Source of the DNA: Desulfovibrionaceae bacterium
GTDB taxonomy: Bacteria; Desulfobacterota; Desulfovibrionia; Desulfovibrionales; Desulfovibrionaceae
DNA length: 53,452 nucleotides
Direction: 5' to 3'
Assembly (NCBI GenBank): GCA_031082225.1
Contig: JAVHLG010000019.1
Coordinates: forward strand, 4,464 to 57,915
The notes under the pieces are model-generated. The model was not told where the DNA came from, made no database searches, and saw only the letters and a list, made by a program, of their open reading frames with translations. The position numbers and the translations under genes were made by a program. Shown one piece after another: positions 34,327-52,203 of the stretch. Position 1 is the first letter of the stretch. Every line of letters begins with the position of its first letter.

Positions 34327-35223
34327 ATGACCGTGTCGCCCGCAGGGGCGGTGAAGCACGATGACCCCGGGCTGGCGCGCTGCGAGGCGGCGGCCCGGCG
34401 GCTGTTGCTGTCCCATGCCTACAAGGGGCGGAAGCGTTTCTGTCCCCGCTGCCGGGGCGGGAAGGTTTACGCCCTGGCCGACGGCAGACTGCGTTGCGCC
34501 GCGTGCCGGTATACCTTTCATGAATTGACCGGCCGGTTCGTCAATGTCGGGGGCCTCAGTTGCCGGGACTGGCTGCGCCTCACCCGGCTTTTTGCCGCGG
34601 AGGCCACCGCCAGCCACATGGCCGAGGAACTGGGGCTGGCCTACAACACCGTCTACCGGGCCGTGACCGTCATCCGGTTCGCCATCGTGGCCAGCGCTCC
34701 GGACGCCGCCCAGATCCTTTTCGGCGAGACGGGACGGGCCATGGGATACGACGACGGCCGCATCGCCATGTCCCGGGGCACGGATGCGGAAGGCCAGATC
34801 CCGGTCTTCGGGATCATTGAGCGGCCGGACTGGACCTTCGTGGACTTGGTGCCGGACATGCGCGTGGAGCATGTCGTCCATTTCAATTTGAATTTTTCCC
34901 TCAAGGTGGCCCGTCTGGGCAAGGTGGTCTACACTGACCGCTACCAGCATTACGACGCGCTCATGTTCTGCGGCGGCGACGACTCCCGGCGCTACGCCGA
35001 CATCCTGGACCGCACGCCTTTTCTGGATAGCCGCACGGGCGGTTTCTGGCGTTTCGCCCAAAGCCGGTTGCGCCGCTATAACGGCGTCAGCGCCCGCAGA
35101 TTTCCCCTGTACCTCAAGGAACTGGAATTCCGCTATAATCATCGGAAAGATGATATCCTGCCGATCTTGCTCGCCTATTTGTGCAATTTGGTGCCAAAAC
35201 GCGAACAAAGCGATTTGTTTTGA
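34327..35223 (+). CDS. IS1595/ISXO2-like transposase relative with altered catalytic triad
   Basis: A 298-residue protein. A zinc ribbon (CPRCRGG ... CAACRYTFHELTGRF) is followed by a helix-turn-helix (TASHMAEELGLAYNTVYRAV) and a DDE-type transposase core. The second Asp (VVYTDRYQHYD, D204) and the Glu (YLKELEFRYNHR, E265) are in place, but the first position, normally VDES, reads FGET (G133), so the protein is probably catalytically dead. No terminal inverted repeats or target duplication are seen around it. A domesticated DNA-binding role is possible, for example at the formate dehydrogenase genes 350 bases downstream. GGGAGG lies just before the ATG. Confidence 0.75.
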   Translation: MTVSPAGAVKHDDPGLARCEAAARRLLLSHAYKGRKRFCPRCRGGKVYALADGRLRCAACRYTFHELTGRFVNVGGLSCRDWLRLTRLFAAEATASHMAEELGLAYNTVYRAVTVIRFAIVASAPDAAQILFGETGRAMGYDDGRIAMSRGTDAEGQIPVFGIIERPDWTFVDLVPDMRVEHVVHFNLNFSLKVARLGKVVYTDRYQHYDALMFCGGDDSRRYADILDRTPFLDSRTGGFWRFAQSRLRRYNGVSARRFPLYLKELEFRYNHRKDDILPILLAYLCNLVPKREQSDLF

Positions 35224-35573: not shown

Positions 35574-38500
35574 ATGAAATTGAAACGCAGGGATTTTCTC
35601 AAGCTGACCGGCGGGGCTGTGGCCGTCACCGCCTTCGGCGGCCTGGGATTCGACCTCACCCCGGTCCATGCCAAGGCCGAGGCGGCGAAACTGGCCGGGA
35701 CCAAGCAGACCACCACAGTGTGCTGCTACTGTTCCGTGGGCTGCGGGCTCATCGTCAGCACCGCTGACGGCGGCAAGGGCCGTGCGGTCAACGTCGACGG
35801 CGACCCGGACCATCCCATCAACGAGGGCGCCCTGTGTCCCAAGGGGGCGTCCATCTACCAACTGTGCGAAAACGACCGGCGCCTTCAGAAGGTGCTCTAC
35901 CGCGCCCCGTATTCCGACAAGTGGGAAGAAAAAAGCTGGGATTTCGCCCTGGAGCGTATCGCCAAGCTGACCAAGGAAGCCCGCGACGCCACCTTTGAGG
36001 TCAAAGACGCCAAGGGCCAGGTGGTCAACCGTTTGAATGGAATCGCCTCCGTGGGCTCGGCAGCCATGGACAACGAGGAGTGTTGGATCTATCAGGCCAT
36101 GCTCCGGGCCATGGGCCTTACGTATATCGAGCATCAGGCCCGTATCTGACACAGCGCTACTGTGGCGGCTCTGGCAGAGTCGTTCGGACGCGGCGCGATG
36201 ACCAATCACTGGATCGACATCGTCAACAGTGATTGCATTTTCATAATCGGCAGCAACCCCGCCGAAAACCATCCGGTCTCCTTCAAATGGGTCATGCGGG
36301 CCAAGGAAAAGGGCGGCAAGGTCATCCACGTCGACCCGCGCTTCACCCGCACCTCCCAGCACGCCGACGTCTTCGCCCGGCTGCGCTCGGGCTCGGACAT
36401 CGCCTTTTTCGGCGGCATGATCAACTACATCCTGAAGAACAACCTGATCTTCAAGGATTACGTGGTCAACTACACCAATGCGGCATTTATCGTCAGCGAC
36501 AAGTACGAATTCAAGGACGGGCTGTTCTCCGGGTTCAACGCGGAAAAACGCAGCTACGACAAGTCCTCCTGGGCCTTCGTCAAGGACGACAAGGGGATTC
36601 CCAAAAAGGATCCCACCCTGGCCAATCCCCGTTGCGTCTATCAGATCATGAAAAAGCACTACGAGCGCTATGACCTGAAGACCGTGTCCAAGATCGCCGG
36701 AACACCGGAAAAGGATCTTGTTGAGGTCTACAAGACCTACACCGAGACGGGCAAGCCCGAGAAGTCCGGCACCATGCTCTACGCCATGGGCCAGACCCAG
36801 CACACCGTGGGCGTGCAGAACATCCGGGCCATGAGCATCATCCAGTTGCTTCTGGGCAACATCGGCGTGGCCGGTGGCGGCATCAACGCCCTGCGCGGCG
36901 AGGCCAACGTCCAGGGCTCCACGGACCAGGGACTGCTGTTCCACATCCTGCCGGGCTATCTGCCGACCCCGACCGCAGCCATGCCCACGCTTGCGGATTA
37001 CAACGCGAAGAACACCCCCAAGTCCTCCGATCCCATGAGCGCCAACTGGTGGGGCAACCGGCCCAAATACGTGGCCAGCCTGCTCAAGGCCATGTATCCC
37101 AAACAGGATCTGGAAACGGCCTATTCCTGGCTGCCCAAGCTCGAACCCGGCAAGGACCAGTCCTGGCTGTCGCTGTTCGACGCCATGCTCAAGGGCGCCT
37201 TCAAGGGCTTCTTCGCCTGGGGCCAGAACCCGGCCGCCAGCACCGCCAACTCCAACAAGACCCGCGAGGCCATGTCCAAGCTGGACTGGATGGTCACGGT
37301 GAACATCTTCGACACCGAGACCGGCTCCTTCTGGCGCGGACCGGGCATGGATCCCAAAAAGATCAAGACCGAGGTCTTTTTCCTGCCCTGCTGCGTGTCC
37401 ATCGAGAAGGAAGGCTCCATCTCCAACTCCGGCCGCTGGATGCAGTGGCGCTACGGCGGCCCCAAGCCCCTGGGCGAGACCAAGCCCGACGGCGACATCA
37501 TCTACGAACTGTTCGAGAAGATTCGCGAACTGTACCAGAAAGAGGGCGGGGCCTTCCCCGATCCCATCCTGAACCTCAACTGGGACGTGGCCACCAACCA
37601 TGTCTTCGACCCGCACAAGGTGGCCAAGCTTATCAACGGCTACTTCCTCACGGAAAAGACCCTGAAGGTGGGCGACGCGGACAAGACCTTCAAGCCCGGA
37701 GACCCGGTGCCGGCCTTCGCCATGCTGCAGGCCGACGGCTCCACCTGCTCCGGAAACTGGATCTACTGCGCCTCCTACACCGACAAGAACATGGCCGCCC
37801 GCCGCGACAAGACCCAGACCGAGATGCAGGCCAAGATCGGCCTGTTCCCGGGATGGACCTGGGCCTGGCCGGTCAATCGCCGCGTCCTGTACAACCGGGC
37901 CTCGGTCGATATGAACGGCAAGCCGTATCAGCCCGAAAAGGCGGTCATCGCCTGGCAGGATGGCAAGTGGGTGGGCGACGTTCCCGATGGTCCCTGGCCG
38001 CCCATGGCCGACAAGGAGAAGGGCCGGTATCCGTTCATCATGACCACCGAGGGATTTGGCCAGATATTCGGCCCGGGCCGCAACGACGGTCCGTTGCCGG
38101 AGTTCTACGAGCCTCTTGAATGCCCGGTGAACGAGCATCCCTTCTCCAAACAGCTGCACAACCCCACGGCCCTGATCTTTGCGGGCGAGGCCGAGAAGCG
38201 CGCCGTGTGCGATCCGCGCTACCCGTTCATCTGCTCCACCTACCGGGTCACGGAACACTGGCAGACGGGCGTCATGACCCGCTGGACGCCGTGGCTGCTT
38301 GAGGCCGAGCCGCAGATGTTCGTGGAGATGAGCCCCGAACTGGCCGAGATGCGCGGCATCAAGGGCGGCGAAAAGGTCATCGTGGAGAACATGCGCGGAC
38401 AGTTGTGGGCCAAGGCCATCATCTCCGAGCGCATCAAGCCCTTCACGGTGATGGGGGAGACCGTCCATCAGGTGGGCATCCCCTGGCACTACGGCTGGGT

Positions 38501-38612
38501 GTACCCCAAGGATGGCGGCGAATCGGCCAACCTGCTCACCCCCTCCGTGGGCGATCCCAATACCGGCATCCCGGAAACCAAGGCCTTCATGGTCAACGTG
38601 CGTAAGGCCTAA
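35574..38612 (+). CDS. fdhA: Formate dehydrogenase catalytic subunit, selenocysteine protein
   Basis: Oxidises formate to CO2 (or the reverse) in the periplasm. 1012 residues if UGA at 36147-36149 (codon 192) is read as selenocysteine. The context EHQARI-U-HSATVAALAESFGRG matches Desulfovibrio tungsten/molybdenum FdhA, where Sec binds the metal, and the frame continues without other breaks. A Tat leader (KRRDFLKLTGG) directs export. One [4Fe-4S] cluster is bound by the cysteines in TVCCYCSVGCG and ALCPKGAS, then the bis-MGD domains follow. GGAGGAA lies 4 nt before the ATG. It is followed by fdhB in 15 nt. Gene finders that ignore Sec would split it in two. Confidence 0.97.
36147..36182 (+). 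promoter_or_regulatory. UGA Sec codon with bacterial SECIS candidate
   Basis: After UGA (36147-36149) a first small stem CACAG-CGCTA-CTGTG (36150-36164) is followed by the stem CGGCTCT-GGC-AGAGTCG (36166-36182), about 7 pairs with one wobble and a short G-rich loop. Position and size fit a bacterial SECIS element bound by SelB. Exact apical pairing is uncertain. Confidence 0.7.
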
Positions 38613-38627
38613 GGAGGGCCGGAAGCC

Positions 38628-39353
38628 ATGAACGGAAAAAGCTTCTTCATCGACCTGTCCAAGTGCACGGCCTGCCGGGGCTGCCAGGTGGCCTGCAAAC
38701 AGTGGAAAAACAAACCCGCCGAAAAGACGGAAAACACCGGCTCGCACCAGAATCCGCCGGATCTGTCCTGGATGACGCTGAAACTGGTGCGGTTCACGGA
38801 AAAGACCATCGACGGCAAGTTCAACTGGCTGTTTTTTCCGGACCAGTGCCGTCACTGTGTGGATGCGCCGTGCAAGATGGTGGCCGACTCCGAAGTGGAA
38901 GGGGCCATCCTGCAGGACGAGGCCACGGGCGCGGTGATCTTCACGGACAAGACCAAGGACATCAGCATCGACAACGTGCGTCCGGCCTGTCCCTACGACA
39001 TCCCCCGGGTCAATCCCGAGACCAAGGTCATGTTCAAGTGTGACATGTGCATCGACCGGGTGCAGGCGGGACTTCTGCCGGCCTGCGTGCAGACCTGTCC
39101 CACGGGGACCATGAACTTCGGGGATAGGGACGAGATGCTGGCTTTGGCTGAAAAGCGGCTGGCCGAGGTGAAAAAGAGGTATCCCCAGGCCATTTTGGCC
39201 GACCCCAAGGACGTGCGGGTGATTTTCCTGTGCCTGTTCCCCGGGGACAACTACTATAAATACGTCACGGCCGAGGCGGGTGCGCCCCGGACCATGACCC
39301 GTCAGGCGATGCTGGCCAGACTGACCAGGCCCTTCGCCCGTATCCTGTCGTAA
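38628..39353 (+). CDS. fdhB: Formate dehydrogenase iron-sulfur subunit
   Basis: The small, electron-transfer subunit. 241 residues with cysteine motifs for several [4Fe-4S] clusters: CTACRGCQVACKQW, CRHCVDAPC, CPYDIPR, CDMCIDR and CVQTCPTGTM. No signal peptide, as expected, since it rides with FdhA through the Tat pathway. AAGGAGG lies about 10 nt before the ATG. A strong terminator follows 30 bases after the stop. No cytochrome or membrane anchor subunit follows, so FdhAB is of the soluble periplasmic type that donates to type I cytochrome c3; that partner is not in the window. Confidence 0.97.
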   Translation: MNGKSFFIDLSKCTACRGCQVACKQWKNKPAEKTENTGSHQNPPDLSWMTLKLVRFTEKTIDGKFNWLFFPDQCRHCVDAPCKMVADSEVEGAILQDEATGAVIFTDKTKDISIDNVRPACPYDIPRVNPETKVMFKCDMCIDRVQAGLLPACVQTCPTGTMNFGDRDEMLALAEKRLAEVKKRYPQAILADPKDVRVIFLCLFPGDNYYKYVTAEAGAPRTMTRQAMLARLTRPFARILS

Positions 39354-39383
39354 TCTGGCTCGCCACCCTCGGGCTGGTTACAT

Positions 39384-39423
39384 GCGGCCGCCGGGTCAAG
39401 ACCCCCGGCGGCCGCTTTTCTTT
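39384..39423 (+). terminator. Rho-independent terminator of the fdh operon
   Basis: GCGGCCGCCGGG and CCCGGCGGCCGC form a perfect 12-bp stem with an 8-base loop, followed by TTTTCTTT. It sits 30 bases after the fdhB stop. Confidence 0.93.
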
Positions 39424-39476
39424 GGTTGTGCCTAAGTATGTCGAACAAATCTGGCGGGGTTGCGAATTGGAAAACC

Positions 39477-39504
39477 TTGACGCCCCGCCCCCGTGTGGTA
39501 CCTT
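39477..39504 (+). promoter_or_regulatory. Candidate sigma-70 promoter of the signalling operon
   Basis: TTGACG (39477-39482), 16 bases, then TACCTT (39499-39504), 60 bases before the GTG start at 39564. The -35 is a 5-of-6 match and the -10 only 3 of 6. It is the best pair between the fdh terminator and the operon. Confidence 0.35.
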
Positions 39505-39563
39505 TGTGAAAAATAACGCGACACCGCCCCGCCTGTTCACGAACCGCCTGCAAGGAGCGCGAG

Positions 39564-40871
39564 GTGAGCCTTTCCCCGAGATGTACCGCCGTCTGGGTTC
39601 TTGTCCTCCTGGCGTTTTCCCTCTTCTCCTGTGAAAAGGACTCCGCCCGGGACGCGTCGGACCTCATCACCCCCGGCGTCACCGATACCACCATCCTCGT
39701 CGGCTCCTCCCTGCCGCTCTCCGGCCACGCCAGCTACCTGGGCCTGCAGACCCTCTACGGGGCCATGAGCTACCTCAATTATGTCAACGCCACGGGCGGC
39801 GTCCACGGCCGCACCATCGAGGTCAAGGCCCTAGACGACCAGTACGACCCGGCCAAGTGCGTCACCAACACCCAGAAGCTCATCGTCGAGGACAACGTCT
39901 TCGCCCTTTTCTGCTACGTGGGCACGCCCACGACGCTCAAAATCCTGCCGCTTGTGGACGAGGCCAAGGTGCCGCTGGTGGGCATCTTCACCGGCGCAAA
40001 CGCGCTTCGCGAACCCTTCAACCGCCAGATCATCAACGTCCGCGCCTCCTATTACCAGGAAACCAAGGCCGCCGTGCAGCATCTTGTGGACGACCTGGGC
40101 ATCAAGCGCATCGCCGTCTTCTACCAGTACGACACCTACGGATTCGACGGCCTCAAGGGCACGGAACTGGCGCTGAAGGAATACGGCCTGGCCCCCGTGG
40201 CCCGGGGCACCTACGCCCGGGGCACCATGGAGGTGGAGGAGGGCTTAAGCCGCATCCTGGAGGCCAACCCCGAGGCCGTGGTCATGATCGGCACCTACGG
40301 TCCCTGCGCCCGGTTCATCAAGCTGGCCGAGGAGCGGGGGGCCAATCCGGTTTTCTACGCCGTCTCGTTCGTGGGCGCGGACGAGATCGCCCGCATCCTG
40401 GGGCCGGGCAACACCAGCGAGGTCATCATGTCCCAGGTGGTGCCGCCGCCGGATCTGCCCGAGACGCGCACGCTTTTGTGGGGCGTGGTGGAATATTCGG
40501 ACATGCTGAGGAAATATTATCCCAAAGAAATGCCCAATACCGTGGGGCTTGAGGCCTACATCAACGCCAAGGTGCTGGTGGAGGGGCTGCGCCGGGCCGG
40601 CCGCAACCTGACCCGGGACCATTTCATCGACGCCATCGAATCCATCCGCGACTATTCCGTGGGCATCGCCAACACCATATCGTTCAGCCCGGAGAAGCAT
40701 CAGGGCCTGGAGCGGGTGTATTTCAACAAGCTTGAGGACGGAAAGTTCGCGCTCATCACCGATTGGACCAAGATACGAATCCATCGACCCGAGGTCGAGG
40801 CCGTGAAGCCCGAGGCCGCCGAGGGATCGCAGCGTGGTGAAAATGAAGCCGTTCCGGCACGTCAGCCTTAA
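39564..40871 (+). CDS. Periplasmic ligand-binding lipoprotein (Leu/Ile/Val-binding type)
   Basis: A 435-residue type I periplasmic binding protein. Lipobox LFSC puts the anchored Cys at position 23. The domain follows: ILVGSSLPLSGHASYLG, GGVHGRTIEVKALDDQYDP, the inter-lobe segments KRIAVFYQYDTYGFDG and NPEAVVMIGTY. No ABC permease or ATPase genes are adjacent; instead the gene overlaps by 38 nt a sensor kinase gene, so the protein probably serves as the ligand sensor of that kinase (as TorT for TorS), not as a transporter part. The GTG start has AAGGAG 8 nt upstream. The ligand is unknown. Confidence 0.88.
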   Translation: MSLSPRCTAVWVLVLLAFSLFSCEKDSARDASDLITPGVTDTTILVGSSLPLSGHASYLGLQTLYGAMSYLNYVNATGGVHGRTIEVKALDDQYDPAKCVTNTQKLIVEDNVFALFCYVGTPTTLKILPLVDEAKVPLVGIFTGANALREPFNRQIINVRASYYQETKAAVQHLVDDLGIKRIAVFYQYDTYGFDGLKGTELALKEYGLAPVARGTYARGTMEVEEGLSRILEANPEAVVMIGTYGPCARFIKLAEERGANPVFYAVSFVGADEIARILGPGNTSEVIMSQVVPPPDLPETRTLLWGVVEYSDMLRKYYPKEMPNTVGLEAYINAKVLVEGLRRAGRNLTRDHFIDAIESIRDYSVGIANTISFSPEKHQGLERVYFNKLEDGKFALITDWTKIRIHRPEVEAVKPEAAEGSQRGENEAVPARQP

Positions 40872-42834
40872 GATCAAGATTTTTTTGAGCACGCTTGGCG
40901 TGGTGCTCCTGATCAGCGTGGCCATCGCCATGCTGGCCAGATGGATATTGGTTTCAAGCCTCACCCGCGAGCTCGAGCTGCGCGGCGTGGCCATCGCCCA
41001 GAGCATCGCCGAGGGCGGCAGCGGCTATGTCCTGGACCAGGACACCCCGAACCTGGTGAGCCTGATCTTCGACGCGGCCCAGCTTGGCGAACGCAAGATC
41101 CTCATCTCCTACATCTACATCGTGGACATGGACGGCAACGTCCTGGCCAACACCTTCATCAAGCCCTTTCCCCGGGAGCTTTTGAGCGTCAACGTCCTGC
41201 CGCCGGACAAGGACCAGTCCGTGACGCTGATCCAGGTGGACGGGGAGCAGGCCTACGACATCGCCGTGCCGCTGAAGGAAGGCATCTACACCCTGGGCGC
41301 GGTGCACGTGGGCCTGAACAAGACCCACATCGACAATCTGGTGGGCAAACTGCGCTTCACCTTTCTGGGATTTATTTCGGCCATCGTGGTCATCATCTTC
41401 CTCATCGCCCTGCGCCTGTCCAACTACATCACCCAGCCCGTCACCCGCCTGACGCGCATCTCCGACGAGATCAGCCGGGGCAACCTGGATTTCCCCATGG
41501 CCCTGCTCGACGCCCAGGGCCGCCAACCCCGGGACTGTCCGGCCTACAACAACACCGATCTGCCGTGCTGGCACTTCGACCAGAACCTCATGGCCGAATC
41601 CGAGGCCACGGCGGAAAACGTGCGCACCTGCAAGGAATGCGTGTTTTATAAAAAGCGCAAGGGCGACGAGGTGGACCAGTTGGCCGACTCCTTCAGCAAC
41701 ATGATCTGGTCCATCAAGCTCTACCGCCGCAGGCTGCGGGAATCCGAGGAGAAGTACCGCTCGCTGTTCGACAGCAACCCCGATCCGGTCTTCGTGGTGG
41801 ATTTGAACAAGAAGCGGATTCTGGACGCCAACCCCCGGGCCGAGGAGGTGTACGGCTACACCAAGCCCGAGCTTTTAGGACGGCCCATCGAGGATCTTGA
41901 GCCCTCGGACGGGTTGGCCGGCGTCTCCCGGTTCATGAGCATGCCCCAGGCGGGCGAGTGCATCCTGTTCACCAAGGTGCGGCACCTCAAGAAGGGCGGC
42001 GTACCGTTTTTCGTGAACCTGCACGCCTGCCGCACCCACTATCGGGGCAAGGAGGCGGTGATCTTTTCCACCACGGACATCACGGACATGGTGGAGAAGG
42101 ACGCCCAGCTCATCCAGGCCAGCAAGATGAAGACCCTGGGCGAGATGAGCGCGGGCATCGCCCACGAGCTCAACCAGCCCCTAAACGCCATCAAGATGGG
42201 CAGCGATTTCTTGAGCCTCATGGTGGGGCAGCGGCGGGACATCCCGAAGGAACACCTGAGCCGGGTGGTGGGGGAGATCAGCGTCCAGGTGGACCGGGCG
42301 GCGGCCATCATCAACCATCTGCGGGAATTCGGCCGCAAGTCGGACCTGAAAAAGGAAAAGGTGGACATCAACGTCCCCATCCGGGGGGTGTTCACCATCA
42401 TCGGCCAGCAGCTGGCCCTGCAAAATATCGACGTGACCCTGGATTTGTGCGATTCTCTCCCCCAGATTCACGCCCACTCCAACCGTCTCGAACAGGTGTT
42501 TTTCAATCTGGTGACCAACGCCCGGGATGCCGTGAACATGCGCGGGAGCATAGCCCAAAGCGAAACCACGCCCAGGGAGATTTCCATCCGATCCTGGCTT
42601 GAAGGGGATCGCGTGGCCGTGACCGTCTCCGATACCGGATGCGGTATTACGCCCCAGGATCTGCAGAAGATTTTCGAGCCGTTTTTCACCACGAAAACCA
42701 TGGGGCACGGCATGGGGCTCGGCCTGTCCATCTCCTACGGCATCGTCAAGGATTACGGCGGCGACATCGAGGTGGGAAGCGAACCCGGGGAGGGCACCAC
42801 CTTCAAACTGACGTTTCCCGTGACGGACAACTGA
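40834..42834 (+). CDS. Sensor histidine kinase with HAMP, four-Cys cluster and PAS domain
   Basis: A 666-residue membrane kinase. TM1 (about 15-38) and TM2 (about 180-203) enclose a periplasmic sensor domain. A HAMP segment follows, then an insertion with C235, C245, C266 and C269 (DCPAYNN..., PCWHF, CKECVFY), which could hold a metal or Fe-S centre. Then PAS (about 305-420, YRSLFDSNPDPVFVV), HisKA with H444 (GIAHELNQPLNAI) and HATPase_c ending GHGMGLGLSISYGIV. The layout is NtrB-like. It starts inside the binding-protein gene and is followed after 17 nt by a REC-STAS regulator. An alternative ATG lies at 40843. Confidence 0.92.
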   Translation: MVKMKPFRHVSLKIKIFLSTLGVVLLISVAIAMLARWILVSSLTRELELRGVAIAQSIAEGGSGYVLDQDTPNLVSLIFDAAQLGERKILISYIYIVDMDGNVLANTFIKPFPRELLSVNVLPPDKDQSVTLIQVDGEQAYDIAVPLKEGIYTLGAVHVGLNKTHIDNLVGKLRFTFLGFISAIVVIIFLIALRLSNYITQPVTRLTRISDEISRGNLDFPMALLDAQGRQPRDCPAYNNTDLPCWHFDQNLMAESEATAENVRTCKECVFYKKRKGDEVDQLADSFSNMIWSIKLYRRRLRESEEKYRSLFDSNPDPVFVVDLNKKRILDANPRAEEVYGYTKPELLGRPIEDLEPSDGLAGVSRFMSMPQAGECILFTKVRHLKKGGVPFFVNLHACRTHYRGKEAVIFSTTDITDMVEKDAQLIQASKMKTLGEMSAGIAHELNQPLNAIKMGSDFLSLMVGQRRDIPKEHLSRVVGEISVQVDRAAAIINHLREFGRKSDLKKEKVDINVPIRGVFTIIGQQLALQNIDVTLDLCDSLPQIHAHSNRLEQVFFNLVTNARDAVNMRGSIAQSETTPREISIRSWLEGDRVAVTVSDTGCGITPQDLQKIFEPFFTTKTMGHGMGLGLSISYGIVKDYGGDIEVGSEPGEGTTFKLTFPVTDN

Positions 42835-42851
42835 AAACAGAGGATGCACAG

Positions 42852-43610
42852 ATGCGACGGATTTTGGTCATCGACGATGAACAACCCACCCTTTCCATGT
42901 TCTCGCTGTATCTGGAGGCCTACGGCTTCACGCCTCTGACCGCCGAGACTGGAGAGAAGGGGCTTGAGATCTTCCGCGAGCATCATCCCTCCATCGTGCT
43001 GACGGATATCAAGATGCCGGGCATGGACGGCCTGACGGTGCTCAAGCGGATCAAGGAGGAAAGCCCGGACACGGAGGTCATCGTCATCACCGGCCATGGC
43101 GACATTGATCTGGCGCTCAAGGCCCTAAACCTCAACGCCACGGATTTCATCGACAAGCCCATCCGCCAGGAGGCCCTGGAGTCGGCCCTGCGGCGGGCCG
43201 AGGAGCGTCTGGCGGCGCTTCGGGACAAGGATGAGGAAATCGCCGTGCGGGACATGCGCGGCGGGGTGGCGGTCATTGACATCCGGGGCAACGTCACCTC
43301 GCGGTCCGAGCCGTATCTCGTCCGGGCCTACGCCGAGGCCTCGGGTCCGGAGGGCACGCGTCCCCTGCTTTTGCATTTCGAGCAGAGCGCCTCCATAAAC
43401 GGCGCGGGCATCGCGGTCCTGACCCAGCTTCTTGTGGAGAGCGACAAACGCGGCCAGCCCGTGGCCATTTCCGGCCCCTCGGAAAATTTCACCAAGGTTT
43501 TCGAGATCGTGGGCATCACCAAGTTCGTGGACATCCATGAGACCGAAGAGGCGGCCGTGGCCGTGCTCCTTGGCAAGGCGGGCGGCGCGTCCGCAAAGGA
43601 GGCGGGATGA
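42852..43610 (+). CDS. Response regulator with receiver and STAS domains
   Basis: A 252-residue cytoplasmic protein. The receiver (1-120) has D8/D9, the phospho-acceptor D52 (LTDIKMPGMDG) and the conserved Lys (DKP, 102). The second domain (about 130-245) is STAS-like, as in SpoIIAA antagonists. At the position of the SpoIIAA motif DSSG it has NGAG (183-186), so the usual phospho-Ser is missing and the switch, if any, must come from the receiver. No DNA-binding domain is present. The output is probably protein-protein contact, for example with an anti-sigma factor. Follows the kinase by 17 nt and overlaps the redoxin gene by 4 nt. Confidence 0.9.
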   Translation: MRRILVIDDEQPTLSMFSLYLEAYGFTPLTAETGEKGLEIFREHHPSIVLTDIKMPGMDGLTVLKRIKEESPDTEVIVITGHGDIDLALKALNLNATDFIDKPIRQEALESALRRAEERLAALRDKDEEIAVRDMRGGVAVIDIRGNVTSRSEPYLVRAYAEASGPEGTRPLLLHFEQSASINGAGIAVLTQLLVESDKRGQPVAISGPSENFTKVFEIVGITKFVDIHETEEAAVAVLLGKAGGASAKEAG

Positions 43611-44185
43611 TGGGACGATGTCGGCGCAGGCGGCCTCGCCGATGGGCGGTGTCGGCCCTTTGGCTCATGATGGCCATGGCCTGGGGAGGACTGGCGGCGG
43701 CAGCGGAACTGCCCGGTGTGGGGGACGCCCTGCCGGACTTCACCCTGCCGACGCCGGGCAAGGCCGAGGACCGGGCCGCCCTGGGCCTGGGTGACGGGGC
43801 GACCTTTGGCTTGGGCGACCTGCATGCCCAGTGCGTCATCTTCGAGGTCATCGGCGTCTATTGCGTGGAATGCCACAAACAGGCCCCCTCGTTCGCCAAA
43901 CTCCATGCCCGTCTGGCCAAGGATGGTACCCTGGCCGGGAAGGTGAAGATGCTGGCCATGGCCGCCGGGGCCACGGAGAAGGAGGTGGAGTATCTGCGCG
44001 CCAAGGGGAATTATCCGTTTGTCGTGGTCAACGATCCGGACTATGTCGCGCACAAGATCCTGGGCGAACCGAAAACCCCCTTCACCATGATCGTGACCGG
44101 TGAGGGCCGGGTGGTTTTCGCCCACCTCGGCGTGATCACGGATATGGGAGGGCTGTACCGCGATATCGAGAAGCTGTGCCGATGA
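43607..44185 (+). CDS. Exported redoxin/TlpA-like thioredoxin-fold protein
   Basis: A 192-residue protein with an Arg-rich start and a signal peptide (about 1-33). The thioredoxin-like domain has the motif VYCVECHKQAP (C86, C89), then KMLAMAAGATEKEVEYL and a cis-Pro-type TPFTMIV loop. Typical AhpC/TlpA-like proteins of this form reduce disulfides or deliver electrons in the periplasm. Its start overlaps the previous stop (ATGA), and its own end overlaps the next start (ATGA), so co-expression with the signalling genes is firm. The partner redox protein is not known; the MauE-like protein two genes downstream is a candidate. Confidence 0.87.
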   Translation: MMGRCRRRRPRRWAVSALWLMMAMAWGGLAAAAELPGVGDALPDFTLPTPGKAEDRAALGLGDGATFGLGDLHAQCVIFEVIGVYCVECHKQAPSFAKLHARLAKDGTLAGKVKMLAMAAGATEKEVEYLRAKGNYPFVVVNDPDYVAHKILGEPKTPFTMIVTGEGRVVFAHLGVITDMGGLYRDIEKLCR

Positions 44186-45945
44186 CCGCCGACATGGAAT
44201 CCGCCGCGCAGCCGCTTTTTTGCCGGGATGCGGATGGCGATCCCTCGGGGGCCCTTGCCCGCCGCCTGTTTCAACTGCAGACCCTCAACGAGGCCTCCTT
44301 TGAACTGAGCCGTCTGGCCTCCGCCCAGGAGATTGCGGATTCCTTCCTTTTGACCGCCATGGGCGCCCTGGGGGCGGTACAGGGATTCGTGCTGGTCATG
44401 ACCGCCGCCGGAGTCAGGCGGGCGCTTTCCATCCGTGGCTTTCCCGAGGCCGAGACGGCCGGGCTGCGGGATGATCCCGGTCGGATCATGCAGACCTACT
44501 GCTCAGGGGTCAAACCGGGGAAGCCTTCCCCTCCCTCGCGTCCCCATATCCTGTTTGCCGGAAAAACCTCCGGCCCCATGCTTTTCCCTTCCGGCACCGT
44601 GATTTTGGTCAAATGGGTCATGGACGACGAATGCGGATTCGTGGGCCTGGGCCCAAAGATCAAGGAAGCCTATTCCGGCGAGGACCGCGATTTTCTGATC
44701 TCGCTTACGGCCACGTTCCAGCATTTTCTGGGACGGGCGTTTTTTATCGAGGAGATACACCGCCTCAACGCCGACCTGCAGTCCGGCTATGCGGAACTGC
44801 AGGACTCCCTGGCCGCATCGCGGCGGCTGGGGAAGGAGCTTGATCGCCGCGTATACCATCTCAGGGCCGTCAACGACACGGTCAACGAACTGAGCGGGCT
44901 GCTGGATTCCGGCGAACTCATGCAGCGTTTTTTGCTTCTGTCCATGGGGGCGGTGAGCGCGGCCCGGGGATATCTGGCGCTTTTTTCGCAGCCCGGGGAG
45001 CAGCGGCGGCTGGTCTGCCGGGGGATGGAGGAGGCGGTTCTGGCCGAGGCCAGCGGGTCGCGGATCAGCCGCCTGGTGACCAGGATGCTTTTTTCCGGCG
45101 GGCAGGGGGGCGGAAGCGGCGGCCTGCGCCGGGGGCTGGCCGTGGATGCGGAGGTCTTGACCCAGGCCGGTCTGCCTGCGGACATGCCGGGGGTCTGGTT
45201 CGTGGTGGACGACTCCCGATTCGGTTTTTTGGGGCTGGGGGATCGGTTGACGCCTGCGGCCTTCGATCCCCTGGAATGCGACTTTCTGCTGACGGCCACC
45301 GGGGCGTTTACGGTTTTTTTGCGCAATGCCGGGCTCTATGAAGAGAAAAACCGCCTGATCGACAATCTGGCCGCGCAAAACCGGGAACTTCAGGAGACCC
45401 TGGACTGCCTGACGCGATCCCGGCAGGAGGTCGATGTTCTCAAGGCCGCCAAGCAGCGGATCACGGAGCTTGTGCGCTGCGAGATGGACCGGGTGGGCCG
45501 GGTTTCGGTCATGGATTTCGTGCTCATCCTGTGCGTGTCCCTGGCAATCGGCATCCTGTTCAACTCCGCCAACCCAAGCGGCGTGGGCCTTTTGCCGTCC
45601 AGTTGGAGCCGACCCGCCATCCAGGCCGTGGATCCCTCCCTGGCCCGGTCCCGGCTCGACCAGGGCGCGGCGGTCGTGGTGGACGCCAGACCCAGGGAAT
45701 TTTTCGAGATGAAACACATTCCAGGGGCGGTGAACCTCCCCCTGTCCCTGTTCGATTTCGTCTATGGCATGGAAATGGCCGACCTGGATCCCGCCCGGGA
45801 GGTCGTGGTGTACGGGGGCAACATCAGCCGCCGCTATGACGACGACGTGGCCGCGCTTCTGATCGAACGGGGCCACAGCGACGTGAAGGTGTTGTCCGGC
45901 GGTCTCGACGCCTGGGAAAAACGCGGATTTCCGGTAACGCCATGA
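44182..45945 (+). CDS. GAF-GAF-membrane-rhodanese protein, rhodanese catalytic Cys missing
   Basis: A 587-residue protein with an unusual order. Two GAF-like domains (about 40-190 and 235-385, both with a FLLT/LLLSMGAL opening) are followed by a coiled coil (about 390-430), one membrane segment (444-463) and a C-terminal rhodanese domain (480-585). The rhodanese loop that normally starts with Cys reads VVVYGGNISRRY, with G545 at the Cys position, so sulfur transfer is unlikely. If the N-terminus is cytoplasmic the rhodanese domain faces the periplasm. It overlaps both neighbours by 4 nt. Its role may be to relay a cytoplasmic signal to periplasmic redox partners; this is inferred. Confidence 0.78.
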   Translation: MTADMESAAQPLFCRDADGDPSGALARRLFQLQTLNEASFELSRLASAQEIADSFLLTAMGALGAVQGFVLVMTAAGVRRALSIRGFPEAETAGLRDDPGRIMQTYCSGVKPGKPSPPSRPHILFAGKTSGPMLFPSGTVILVKWVMDDECGFVGLGPKIKEAYSGEDRDFLISLTATFQHFLGRAFFIEEIHRLNADLQSGYAELQDSLAASRRLGKELDRRVYHLRAVNDTVNELSGLLDSGELMQRFLLLSMGAVSAARGYLALFSQPGEQRRLVCRGMEEAVLAEASGSRISRLVTRMLFSGGQGGGSGGLRRGLAVDAEVLTQAGLPADMPGVWFVVDDSRFGFLGLGDRLTPAAFDPLECDFLLTATGAFTVFLRNAGLYEEKNRLIDNLAAQNRELQETLDCLTRSRQEVDVLKAAKQRITELVRCEMDRVGRVSVMDFVLILCVSLAIGILFNSANPSGVGLLPSSWSRPAIQAVDPSLARSRLDQGAAVVVDARPREFFEMKHIPGAVNLPLSLFDFVYGMEMADLDPAREVVVYGGNISRRYDDDVAALLIERGHSDVKVLSGGLDAWEKRGFPVTP

Positions 45946-46421
45946 ACGCTCCCGACCACAAGACATGGTGCCGCCTGCATGCCTGGCTGGCCCTGGCCTT
46001 CCGGGTCTACATCGGCGGGCTGTTCATCTATGCCAGCATCTACAAGATCAATTATCCCGCCGAATTTGCCGAAACCATCGCCTCCTACCAGGTGGTGCCC
46101 TATTTCCTGGTCAACATCACGGCCGTGGTGCTGCCCTGGATCGAGCTCATCACCGGAACCCTGCTTCTGGCCGGGATCCGTCCCCGGGCCGCCACGGCCA
46201 TCCTGGGCGGGCTGCTGGTCCTTTTCACCCTGGCCATCGCCTGGGTGCTGTTTCAGGGCGTGCCCATCGGGTGCGGCTGCTTCCATACCATCGAGGATCC
46301 CATATCCTGGAAGACCCTGGTGCGGGATCTGGCCTGGCTGGCCATGACCGCCTACATTTTCGCGCATGACCGGCTCTTTCACCTCGAAGAACATTTCATG
46401 ATGAAGCTGAAGGAACTCTGA
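45942..46421 (+). CDS. MauE/DoxX-family membrane protein
   Basis: A 159-residue integral membrane protein with four predicted helices (about 18-35, 55-78, 85-105, 125-142). The pair C111-G-C113 in VPIGCGCFHT lies between helices 3 and 4 and is conserved in MauE-like proteins, which pass electrons across the membrane to periplasmic thioredoxin-like proteins in the manner of DsbD/CcdA. Start overlaps the previous stop (ATGA), and its stop overlaps the next start (TGATG). In this operon it could reduce the redoxin at 43607-44185. Confidence 0.85.
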   Translation: MNAPDHKTWCRLHAWLALAFRVYIGGLFIYASIYKINYPAEFAETIASYQVVPYFLVNITAVVLPWIELITGTLLLAGIRPRAATAILGGLLVLFTLAIAWVLFQGVPIGCGCFHTIEDPISWKTLVRDLAWLAMTAYIFAHDRLFHLEEHFMMKLKEL

Positions 46422-46744
46422 TGCGAGCATTGCGTGTGCCGTGGGTCGTTGTCCTGGTTTTTGTGGTGGTCGCCTGCGGCCGGTCATCGACCGTGTCCGG
46501 AACGTATGAGGCCTCCTACGGGGAGGGTGACCGAGACAAGAGCATCGTTTTGGAACTGCGCGAGGGCGGGCAGGGCTCCTGGACGGCGGACGGGGAGAGC
46601 ATCGCCTTCAAATGGGACGTACGCGACGGAGAGGTCTTGCTGCACACCAAGGCCGGGGGCGTGATCCGGGTCGCGGTCAGGGGGGAGGAGTTGACGACGG
46701 ATCTGCCGGGGGTGGGAAAGCTGGTTTTCCGCCGCCCGGATTAG
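46421..46744 (+). CDS. Small lipoprotein of unknown function
   Basis: 107 residues. Signal peptide II with lipobox VVAC (C19). The mature part is a small beta-rich domain (VSGTYEASYGEGDRDKSIVLEL ... FKWDVRDGEVLLHTKAGG), similar in look to small copper-resistance or META-like folds, but I cannot assign it. Last gene of the operon; it starts on the A of the previous stop. A GC hairpin (46753-46780) without T-run follows. Confidence 0.7.
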   Translation: MRALRVPWVVVLVFVVVACGRSSTVSGTYEASYGEGDRDKSIVLELREGGQGSWTADGESIAFKWDVRDGEVLLHTKAGGVIRVAVRGEELTTDLPGVGKLVFRRPD

Positions 46745-46764
46745 GTCGGCCGCCCCCGGTCCGC

Positions 46765-47304
46765 TTACGGTTCCCGGGGGGCCAGGAAATTCTCGAACAG
46801 GGCCTGGAGTTCCTCCTCGGTGTGCGCTCCCTGCACCCGGTCCACCACTCGTCCGTTTTGAATGAAGACCAGCATGGGGATGGGGTTTAATCCGTAGTGC
46901 CCGACGCCGACCTCTCCGACCCAGTAGACCGGGAACTCCACGCCGAACTTGTTCACCATGGGCTGCATGGCCTGGGCCCCGGCAAAATCCACGCTCACCC
47001 CGTACATCGCCATCCCCTTGCCTTGGTAGTGCTTGTGCAGCCTGACCAGATGGGGCAGCTCAGCCTTGCACGGTCCGCACCAGGAGGCCATGCCCACCAG
47101 CACGCCGCATTCCGTCTGGGCGATGAGCGTGTCCAGGTCGCTTGTGGTCACGGGGGTCACGATGGACGGCGGCCCGGCATGGGCAGGCAGGGCGCAGACG
47201 AAGACGGCGTACACAAGTCCCAGGACGAGAACTCCGGCCGCCACGGCCCGCAAGGTCGCCGGGGCGTTGCGCCCTGGGACGCGACGTTGCATGGATGGGC
47301 TCAT
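46765..47304 (-). CDS. TlpA-family thioredoxin-like protein
   Basis: A 179-residue exported disulfide reductase-like protein. Signal peptide or anchor at about 18-43 (ending PAHAG), then the thioredoxin fold with the motif MASWCGPCKAELP (C76, C79) and cis-Pro NPIPMLVF. It faces the signalling operon convergently with 20 bases between stops, and a hairpin (46753-46780) overlaps its 3' end. It may be functionally linked to the redox proteins there. The start at 47304 has no clear ribosome site; an ATG at 47292 is possible. Confidence 0.87.
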   Translation of the reverse strand: MSPSMQRRVPGRNAPATLRAVAAGVLVLGLVYAVFVCALPAHAGPPSIVTPVTTSDLDTLIAQTECGVLVGMASWCGPCKAELPHLVRLHKHYQGKGMAMYGVSVDFAGAQAMQPMVNKFGVEFPVYWVGEVGVGHYGLNPIPMLVFIQNGRVVDRVQGAHTEEELQALFENFLAPREP

Positions 47305-47678
47305 GGACGTGTCTTCGGCCGTCTGGCTGGGGTCATTGGCGCGGGCTCTCCGGGCGCGTTCTCCCGCACCCCCGACCGGGACTGACGGCGGGGCGGCATC
47401 CGCAACCTGTCATTTCGGCAACATACCATTCTCCACCGGGGCGGGCAACAGGGAACATCAGTGGGAACATCAGCGGGAACATCAGTGGGAACATCTGCGG
47501 CCTGCCTTCATTCGGGAAAAGGGCGTCCTGCCTCGGGGTCGCTTCTGCTTATGTTTCAATGCGTTGCCCATTGGTTGTGAAAGGACGCAACCTCTTGTAG
47601 GATCACATCGCGTCGGATCGGCAGCCCCGCCTCATGCCCGACGCCTTTGCGGAAAGGACCACGTCCGTTTCACCCGTC
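47305..47678. other. Intergenic region with 12-bp tandem repeats
   Basis: 374 bases between divergent genes. It contains the tandem repeat at 47451-47498. The rest is GC-rich with no supported gene. Open frames here read the repeat as Gly-Asn-Ile-Ser, which I take as a shadow. Confidence 0.4.
47451..47498. repeat. Four 12-bp tandem repeats
   Basis: GGGAACATCAGT, GGGAACATCAGC, GGGAACATCAGT and GGGAACATCTGC in a row, 48 bases. Small period and high identity suggest a slippage-prone site or an array of protein-binding sites in the control region of the flanking genes. Confidence 0.9.
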
Positions 47679-47984
47679 ATGAAAATGAAATCATCACGCG
47701 GCATTCTGGGCAACATGTGCCTGTGGGTTTCCATCCTGGCCATTTACGGCCTTTTGGGATACAGGCTGTATGTCCTGTATTCCGAGGGGATCTGGCTGGA
47801 CTGGACTGTCGGCGACATCCTCCCGGACGCCGTGATCTGGACCGTCATCGGCATGCGGGCGTCGATCCTCAAAAGCATGGTGATCTGGCTTTTATCGCAG
47901 GATGTTCTTCTGTACATGGCGGCGTTTCCGATCATTTTGGTCGTCCTGGACCGCTGGCCGGGCGGGAATGGCCGGGAGACGTGA
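47679..47984 (+). CDS. Small membrane protein, two transmembrane segments
   Basis: 101 residues with hydrophobic segments at about 9-32 and 67-88 and a short hydrophilic part between. It begins MKMKSSRGILGNMCLWV, a basic start before TM1. An upstream in-frame ATG at 47634 exists; neither has a good ribosome site. I do not recognise the family. It is probably inner-membrane, of unknown role. Confidence 0.55.
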   Translation: MKMKSSRGILGNMCLWVSILAIYGLLGYRLYVLYSEGIWLDWTVGDILPDAVIWTVIGMRASILKSMVIWLLSQDVLLYMAAFPIILVVLDRWPGGNGRET

Positions 47985-51435: not shown

Positions 51436-52203
51436 ATGCTCATCATCGAAGACCTGCACGTGACAATCGGCGAACGCGAGGTGCTCAAGGGCATCAACCT
51501 GGAAATCGCCGACAACGAGACCTTTATTCTGTTCGGCCCCAACGGGTCCGGAAAGACCACCCTGCTCATGACGCTCATGGGCTTCGGCAACTACGAGATC
51601 ACCAAGGGACGCATCCTTTTCCGCGAAAAGGACATCACCCACGCCGCCATCTATGACCGGGCCAGGCTGGGCATCGGCATGTCCTTCCAGCGGCCGCCCA
51701 CCATCCATGGCCTGAAGACCCGCCATCTGGTGTCCATGTGCGGCCAGGGCCGCGAGGTGCCGGTGGAGGAACTGGCCAAACGGGTGAACATGGAGACCTT
51801 TCTCGACCGGGACATCAATTCCGGGTTCTCAGGCGGCGAGATCAAACGCTCGGAGCTGTTGCAGCTCATGGCCCAGCAGCCGCATCTGCTGCTCTTCGAC
51901 GAACCGGAATCGGGCGTGGACCTGGAGAACATGAAGCTGATCGGCAACACCGTGCGCGAACTGCTGACCGGCGCGGCCTCCCCCCAGCCGGACAAGAGCA
52001 TGAAGGAGCTCAAGGAGCTCAAGGCGCGGCGCCGCACCTCGGGGCTGATCATCACCCACACCGGCTACATCCTGGAATACATCAACGCCGACCGGGGCCA
52101 GGTGCTCTACGACGGTCATCTGTGCTGCGAGGCCAACCCCCGGGACATCCTGGACCACATCAGCAAGTACGGCTACCAGGAATGCGTGCGCTGCCTGAAA
52201 TAA
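51436..52203 (+). CDS. sufC: Fe-S assembly ATPase SufC
   Basis: ABC-type ATPase that drives Fe-S cluster assembly on SufB/D. 255 residues. Walker A is GPNGSGKTTL, the Q-loop FQRPPTIHG, the signature SGGEIKRSELL and Walker B LLLFDEPESGVD, with the H-loop IITHTG. SufC has E-rich DEPESGVD as here. GAGG lies 6 nt before the ATG. Only sufC and one SufB/D-like gene are present, as in the minimal two-gene SUF-type (SMS) systems of anaerobes. Confidence 0.94.
   Translation: MLIIEDLHVTIGEREVLKGINLEIADNETFILFGPNGSGKTTLLMTLMGFGNYEITKGRILFREKDITHAAIYDRARLGIGMSFQRPPTIHGLKTRHLVSMCGQGREVPVEELAKRVNMETFLDRDINSGFSGGEIKRSELLQLMAQQPHLLLFDEPESGVDLENMKLIGNTVRELLTGAASPQPDKSMKELKELKARRRTSGLIITHTGYILEYINADRGQVLYDGHLCCEANPRDILDHISKYGYQECVRCLK

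Follow-up and report, generated by a model that had tools for sequence, protein, structure and literature searches.

Among the described systems that come closest to the one reported here are the MauD/MauE pair of methylamine dehydrogenase maturation, in which MauD is a CxxC thioredoxin-like protein, and the thiol pathways of DsbD with DsbE, TlpA or ResA, the last of which works in cytochrome c maturation. The formate dehydrogenase FdhAB of Desulfovibrio is in turn a much-studied CO2-reducing enzyme, which is active or oxygen-safe depending on the state of a disulfide switch. In the parts of two accounts considered here, this switch of the D. vulgaris enzyme is an allosteric surface disulfide, active when reduced and resting and oxygen-safe when oxidised, and the descriptions cover the effect of the disulfide but not the factor that sets it in the cell (PMC11134731; PMC13397495, citing Oliveira et al. 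2024). Here we analyse a stretch of 53,452 nucleotides (nt) from a Desulfovibrionaceae bacterium (JAVHLG010000019.1, positions 4464–57915; hereafter the window), in which seven genes, A-B-C-D-E-F-G (39564–46744, all on the + strand), lie directly downstream of formate dehydrogenase (FDH) genes (35574–39353) on the same strand; the original prediction had left the FDH genes out of its gene set. We propose, with a probability of roughly 0.45, that the unit is a thiol relay of the periplasm under cytosolic control and that, where it is linked to FDH, it sets the disulfide switch of FdhAB. The proposal is built on gene order, linkage, conserved cysteines, a lost catalytic cysteine, receptor exchange and a fusion of E with F.

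Conservation and modular structure of the operon

All seven open reading frames (ORFs) were confirmed at their positions and are as tightly packed as originally described: A and B overlap by 38 nt, C starts at an ATG at 42852, 17 nt past the B stop, and D, E, F and G each overlap the preceding gene by 1 to 10 nt. A family search with E as query gave matches in 103 of 149 genomes, of which 31 were full-length or at least long E (E-value 1.8e-30 or better; our count) and the remainder matches to the rhodanese domain. E, a GAF-GAF-transmembrane (TM)-rhodanese protein, is thus present in 31/149 family genomes, mostly with unchanged gene order. The window and 30 other neighbourhoods, read by tblastn and a home-made gene caller with clustering, make up 31 family loci; these overlap partly in genomes with the 54 loci of a genome-collection scan treated below, and the two sets of counts are kept separate. 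The order A-B-C-D-E-F-G or C-D-E-F-G is kept in most of the 30 other neighbourhoods, and clustering places C in 30 family loci, D in 28, E in 31, F in 28, G in 24 and A in 21, the sole locus without C being cut by a contig end. B is present in 21/31 loci, to which tblastn adds one cut copy in L053; its cluster has a 22nd member, but that one, from L043, is a different kinase. Beyond the genus, E proteins share 29 to 43% identity with the window protein, so the gene order has been kept over a long divergence. The seven genes are conserved together and are no chance grouping, and the concern raised with the original prediction, that homologues might never be found together in other genomes, has not been borne out.

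The view of the seven genes as a single system, on the other hand, does not hold: the operon is two joined cassettes, A-B-C and D-E-F-G, each occurring without the other. Eight loci have C-D-E-F-G without A-B (L041, L042, L043, L049, L050, L051, L052 and L064). Conversely, an A orthologue (E-value below 1e-100; a fragment on a short contig of G022, at 2.6e-92, and the weaker match of G024 were left out) is found in 83/149 family genomes, 55 of which lack E. Forty A-linked loci without E were read; a kinase adjoins A in 40/40 and a REC match follows the kinase in 33/40. Among the seven loci without a REC match, L235 and L237 have a REC-STAS ORF by eye, the others being L231, discussed below, and L260–L263; the REC homologue of L233, also A-linked and without E, is REC-STAS by Pfam. 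In four close genomes (L223–L226) the homologues of window ORFs 47634 and 48024 come after C, so D-E-F-G and the adjoining gene H come or go as one block, with the flanking genes unchanged.

Exchangeable receptors on a rhodanese without its catalytic cysteine

Pfam, AlphaFold2 and alignment give E (44176–45945, +) the arrangement GAF-GAF-coiled coil-TM-pseudo-rhodanese. The AlphaFold2 model, built with 30 sequences (mean pLDDT 84.5, pTM 0.47), has GAF-like domains at residues ~23–180 and ~215–375, long helices, a TM segment at 445–465 and a rhodanese domain at 480–589. The GAF domains have no Pfam match, and their folds were named by Foldseek (GAF-PHY and GAF-A/GAF-B structures) and VIA-align: the second aligns to 3cit with Z 14.3 and a root mean square deviation (rmsd) of 2.8, and the tandem aligns to 3mf0 and 3ibj with Z 14.4–14.5 over 289 residues, the rmsd of ~24 probably reflecting domain orientation. 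In the model, two GAF folds stand in a row, as in a tandem-GAF receptor. The charges flanking the TM segment would, in our reading, put the GAF domains inside and the rhodanese outside.

The rhodanese fold is well matched (Pfam 6.9e-15; Z 17.5 to 3tp9 and 16.5 to 1gmx, GlpE), and this part of the original description stands, whereas the catalytic activity that the name implies does not: Gly547 takes the place of the catalytic Cys in 31/31 rows of GAF-type E, within a V-Y-G-x-x-x-S loop, and the corresponding YG.. loop of the short E proteins described below is without Cys in 20/20 rows. We take position 547 to be the catalytic Cys position of rhodaneses, in agreement with the Cys of the paralogues examined. 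With that residue missing, the rhodanese of E is itself probably a carrier of neither sulfur nor electrons, and we rejected sulfur transfer by E. The same residues bear on a reading in which E and F handle sulfane sulfur, removing or delivering periplasmic persulfide, FDH being a client by virtue of its sulfur ligand; the rhodanese fold with its likeness to GlpE, and a Cys-bearing rhodanese in a related gene set of the same genome, speak for it, but with Gly throughout GAF-type E and no loop Cys in short E we regard it as very improbable.

This related set lies on contig C75 (~24.9–27.2 kb) and consists of a thioredoxin-like lipoprotein, a DsbD_TM protein, a TM-rhodanese with Cys and a MauE in a row; in L095, a short rhodanese with Cys adjoins a MauE. 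The C75-type set is perhaps the ancestral kind of D-E-F.

The 54 loci of the genome-collection scan with E are labelled delta-/desulfo-type or plain Proteobacteria, except one Nitrospirae bin. C is present in 31/31 long-E loci with a readable upstream side and in 0/20 called short-E loci. In this scoring, C abuts or overlaps E in L085, L089 and L092 and lies further upstream in L074, where another ORF stands between; the stretch of L076 starts at E, and L101 and L103 were left unclassed. In short E, a cNMP_binding domain replaces GAF-GAF in 3/3 proteins scanned with Pfam. A phylum scan gave matches in 38/395 genomes (E-value 1e-30 or better), and among the loci read, seven (L290–L295 and L309) encode a single-chain fusion, cNMP_binding-TM-rhodanese-MauE, the domains being confirmed by Pfam in both proteins scanned (L290 and L294). 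The occurrence of E and F in one chain points to a joint function. The cytosolic part of E is exchangeable, being GAF-GAF accompanied by REC-STAS, a cyclic-nucleotide domain, or none.

Predicted periplasmic redox proteins

D (43607–44185, +) is a thioredoxin-like redoxin (Pfam AhpC-TSA) with an N-terminus that we read as signal-like, and F (45942–46421, +) is a MauE/DoxX membrane protein that passes the MauE profile with 97.9 bits against a curated cut-off of 27 (E-value 7.1e-28). The two motifs singled out originally are fully conserved, the CxxC of D (C86/C89) in 34/34 clustered redoxins and the CxC of F (C111/C113) in 28/28 rows. Sequence matches of D are weak (3kcm, 2.3e-4; ResA chains, 5.8e-4 to 1.8e-3), on which basis it may be called ResA-like. 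We place the CxC loop of F in the periplasm; as this is its single invariant Cys pair, passage of electrons through the membrane would need a quinone or a DsbD-type partner. By Pfam there is no DsbD gene among the operon genes, and two DsbD_TM matches lie elsewhere in the genome; a search of the same genome gave no match to VKOR, while DsbB was not searched for. A thiol-redox part is thus present, as first suggested for the operon, and electron movement across the membrane is not supported for E and F alone. G (46421–46744, +) is a small lipoprotein without a Pfam match, which clustering finds conserved with D-E-F. Convergent with it lies H (46765–47304, −), a TlpA-like thioredoxin with WCGPC whose cluster was seen in 6/31 loci; it is shared with the two same-genus genomes and a few others.

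Linkage to formate dehydrogenase

FDH stands near the unit in 20/31 family loci (18 with FdhA in the stretch, one by coordinates and one with an FdhB fragment at a contig end). It is present in 19/21 loci with A and in 0/8 loci without A-B that have a readable upstream side. Across the family, FdhA lies within 10 kb of the A orthologue in at least 57/83 genomes, including at least 34/55 of those without E; given genomes of 2.5 to 4.5 Mb that each hold between one and six FdhA matches (21 genomes), such proximity by chance would, by a rough estimate, be expected in a few per cent at most. A-B-C is an FDH-associated cassette. FDH takes four positions relative to the unit (upstream on the same strand, downstream convergent, upstream divergent, and between G and A), and mapping these arrangements on the E tree, with absence as a further label, takes at least 8 changes against a shuffled mean of 16.6, indicating that the arrangement follows descent yet has changed several times. 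Two loci (L296 and L297), both from a single genus of the distant family f18, have FdhA with the switch residues, FdhB, an FdhE-like gene, E, F and D on one strand, E consisting there of TM and rhodanese only.

The window FdhA (35574–38612, +), the periplasmic FDH alpha subunit, was identified by phmmer with the part after an in-frame TGA (36147–36149), which aligns full length to D. gigas 1h0h and D. vulgaris 6sdr; from its position in these proteins, the TGA is predicted to encode selenocysteine. FdhB (38628–39353, +), the iron-sulfur subunit, scores under the curated cut-off of the FDH-beta profile and matches Fer4_11 at 5.2e-40. By alignment, the window FdhA has Cys at the equivalents of both C845 and C872 as well as the equivalent of Met405, a residue that is, in the part of PMC11134731 considered, conserved in the switch subclass. 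In 21 genomes, both switch cysteines are present in 19/20 unit-linked FdhA versus 3/29 unlinked FdhA, but these are not 49 independent cases, because the linked proteins are largely one orthologue group; being related by descent, the copies tell which FDH group accompanies the unit rather than giving an independent correlation. The one linked FdhA without the pair comes from G044, which has two FdhA side by side, the second being the one concerned. Three of 52 matches not covering both cysteines were dropped (G027:C222, G027:C70 and G020:C33), and G016a and G027a were scored as unlinked, being on other contigs, possibly an effect of assembly. The Met405 position is Met in 19/19 readable linked and 7/27 readable unlinked FdhA.

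In four of the 40 A-linked loci that lack D-E-F-G (G115, G148, G010 and G023), the stretch shows no FdhA, which leaves 36 with a readable FdhA. A CxxC redoxin of another kind is present in 21 of the 36, and in 20 of these 21 the FdhA in the locus has the switch pair (CC); in the exception, G021, the FdhA of the locus is GA, with a CC copy (L191) some 17 kb away. The 15 loci without a redoxin comprise 10 with CC and five in which C872 is replaced by Ala (G057, G079, G107, G119 and G141). This pattern is at most suggestive. A strict rule, a redoxin if and only if there is a switch pair, was rejected, since the five CA loci fit it and the ten CC loci without a redoxin do not. Thirteen of the 21 redoxin-bearing loci also carry an AhpC/TSA-type peroxiredoxin (Pfam of a relative). 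The peroxiredoxin-type protein (WTPVCS.QWPG-like) stands next to the CxxC redoxin in L227–L230, L234, L241, L242, L268, L269, L274–L276 and L279, and both are also found in L236, which has no FdhA in the stretch. The pairing at relay-less FDH loci suggests peroxide or thiol protection of FDH.

Just 5' of fdhA in the window lies an IS1595-type gene (Zn_ribbon_IS1595 + DDE_Tnp_IS1595; 34351–35223, +). Relatives with 40–57% identity occur in 15/20 A-B loci, and the cluster of the gene is present in 14/31 E loci; it looks domesticated and is perhaps an FDH regulator.

The sensory cassette

A (39564–40871, +) is a binding lipoprotein with a type I fold (Pfam Peripla_BP_6), its closest solved structure being 4kv7, a Rhodopirellula binding protein with no ligand in its title. 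The notion of a binding protein tied to a kinase and free of a transporter was borne out. A stands beside B in 21/21 family loci with A, one B being truncated where the fetched stretch ends, just as it adjoins a kinase in the A-linked loci without E. A Pfam scan of ten window proteins (38628–47981) found no transporter, and no ABC importer permease and ATPase beside A; an ORF that we read as ABC-ATPase-like (51436–52203) is more than 10 kb away from A. A redox-sensing role of A was considered and rejected, as all three of its cysteines are kept in only 28/61 homologues (in the first 21 rows, C99 in 21/21, C117 in 19/21 and C248 in 21/21).

B (40834–42834, +) is a sensor histidine kinase with, by Pfam, the order sCache_3_2, HAMP-like region, four-Cys stretch, PAS, HisKA and HATPase, the HAMP scoring below the Pfam cut-off. 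The kinase His and the receiver Asp are conserved, making this a two-component system. The four residues between HAMP and PAS (C235, C245, C266 and C269) read CCCC in 59/64 readable homologues and have no Pfam match; they are perhaps a metal or redox site or sensor.

C (42852–43610, +) is a response regulator (Pfam Response_reg + STAS), and neither it nor any homologue scanned has a DNA-binding output domain, all being REC-STAS only by Pfam. STAS domains are well known in anti-anti-sigma factors, where they usually carry a phosphorylated Ser. An alternative is accordingly that A-B-C controls the expression of FDH and of genes downstream, the STAS domain of C having a sigma or anti-sigma factor as its target and D-G being merely co-regulated. 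The frequency of A near FdhA without E, where B always and REC mostly follow, agrees with such a role. Against it, D-E-F-G keeps a second copy of C in genomes whose A-B-C set lies elsewhere (G093, G105, G072 and G004), C accompanies the GAF type of E and not the short type, and the usual phospho-Ser is not seen in the conserved NGAG stretch of its STAS domain. We consider control of expression improbable. As regards a partner-switching system of the SpoIIAA/RsbV kind, the ten window proteins, to which this search was confined, include no adjacent anti-sigma kinase or PP2C phosphatase.

Proposed mechanism and significance

In the proposed relay, A and the sCache domain of B would sense small ligands in the periplasm, either one or two of them, and B would phosphorylate C. 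D, with its CxxC, would serve as the soluble carrier and F, with a CxC on the periplasmic side, as its partner in the membrane, G being an accessory lipoprotein. E would regulate the relay as a cytosolic receptor joined via a membrane helix to a periplasmic dead rhodanese, and this pseudo-rhodanese would hold or gate F and D and the transfer between them. Phospho-C would act on the GAF part of E, so that a cytosolic signal sets thiol chemistry outside (inside-out control), as is suggested by the position of C beside GAF-type E even where A-B is absent, and by its absence from short-E loci. Where FDH is linked, the relay would have the allosteric FdhAB disulfide as its client, reduction turning the resting, oxygen-safe form active; the relay may reduce or oxidise the pair, and the electron partner of F may be a quinone or a DsbD protein. 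From the gene-level evidence we infer the contact of C with E, the topology, the direction of electrons, the existence of a ligand and FdhAB as client.

A number of observations weigh against this proposal. Two genomes have C-E without D and F (G015, which also has A-B, and the contig-cut G055, with part of B), G014 has no F after E, and L231 has A-B with no C called; C also follows A-B in genomes without E, implying another partner of C there. The switch pair is also found in the FDH of genomes without the relay, and the 10/36 A-linked loci that have the pair and no nearby redoxin mean that the relay is not required everywhere. FDH is present at only 13 of the 54 genome-collection loci, nine of these on contigs already in the family set; among short-E loci it occurs in one only (L101), it is found within about 12–13 kb of none of the seven fusion loci, and it is missing from the stretch in the eight family C-D-E-F-G loci. 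With so many relay loci lacking FDH, other clients must exist.

Such loci, the eight of the family, most of the short-E type and all seven fusions, are also what one would expect if the relay served general periplasmic maturation or repair (of c-type cytochromes, in the folding of selenoprotein FDH, or of oxidised thiols), its adjacency to FDH arising from shared conditions. The weak likeness of D to ResA points the same way, as do genes that we read as FdhE-, FdhD- and MoaA-like near some of these loci. The linkage, however, is to FdhA with the switch pair and not to FdhA in general, and it is found separately in the distant f18 family with a minimal E-F-D, leading us to rate general maturation as somewhat unlikely.

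If the proposed relay operates as outlined, a rhodanese that lacks the catalytic Cys, bears an exchangeable receptor and in one class forms a single chain with MauE would represent a novel control of periplasmic thiols from inside, and the unit supplies named candidates for the missing in-cell controller of the FdhAB switch. More tentatively, we consider it possible that the unit exemplifies a general inside-out redox switch, in which an exchangeable receptor (GAF-GAF driven by phosphorylated REC-STAS, or a cyclic-nucleotide domain), a TM helix and a pseudo-rhodanese gating a MauE/redoxin relay would set the disulfides, and with them the activity, of chosen periplasmic enzymes in response to cytosolic signals, for example the CO2-reducing FdhAB. 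The GAF and cyclic-nucleotide classes would then be one family of post-translational controllers across Desulfobacterota.

Comparison with known systems

A kinase with a periplasmic sensor domain adjoined by a binding protein without a transporter recalls TorT/TorS and LuxP/LuxQ, but the output here is a REC-STAS protein without a DNA-binding domain, and the locus is tied to FDH. The weak matches of D to thioredoxin-family and ResA chains recall the DsbD pathways, from which the operon differs in having no DsbD gene of its own, the two DsbD_TM matches lying elsewhere in the genome. Like the D. vulgaris enzyme, the window FdhA has both switch cysteines and the Met405 equivalent, whereas the accounts of that enzyme describe, in the parts considered, a switch within the enzyme itself, and the part of PMC13397495 examined contains no word beginning with 'thioredoxin' (PMC11134731, PMC13397495).

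The C75 set shares with the operon a TM-rhodanese followed by a MauE with CxC; its rhodanese, unlike that of E, has the catalytic Cys (ITYCDGERC) and no receptor domain, and its neighbour is of the DsbD/CcdA type. The open-licence literature searched, from which subscription papers were mostly absent, held no description of a receptor-bearing pseudo-rhodanese with MauE or of a system with this gene set, in line with the original prediction, which as an interpretation is partly supported overall. With MauD/MauE the operon has in common a MauE by Pfam in F and a CxxC thioredoxin-like protein in D; no mau structural gene was found among the ten window proteins with Pfam and NCBIfam, and the operon adds a receptor-bearing pseudo-rhodanese, which in one class shares a chain with MauE. 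The families themselves are known, and what is new is their arrangement in the unit.

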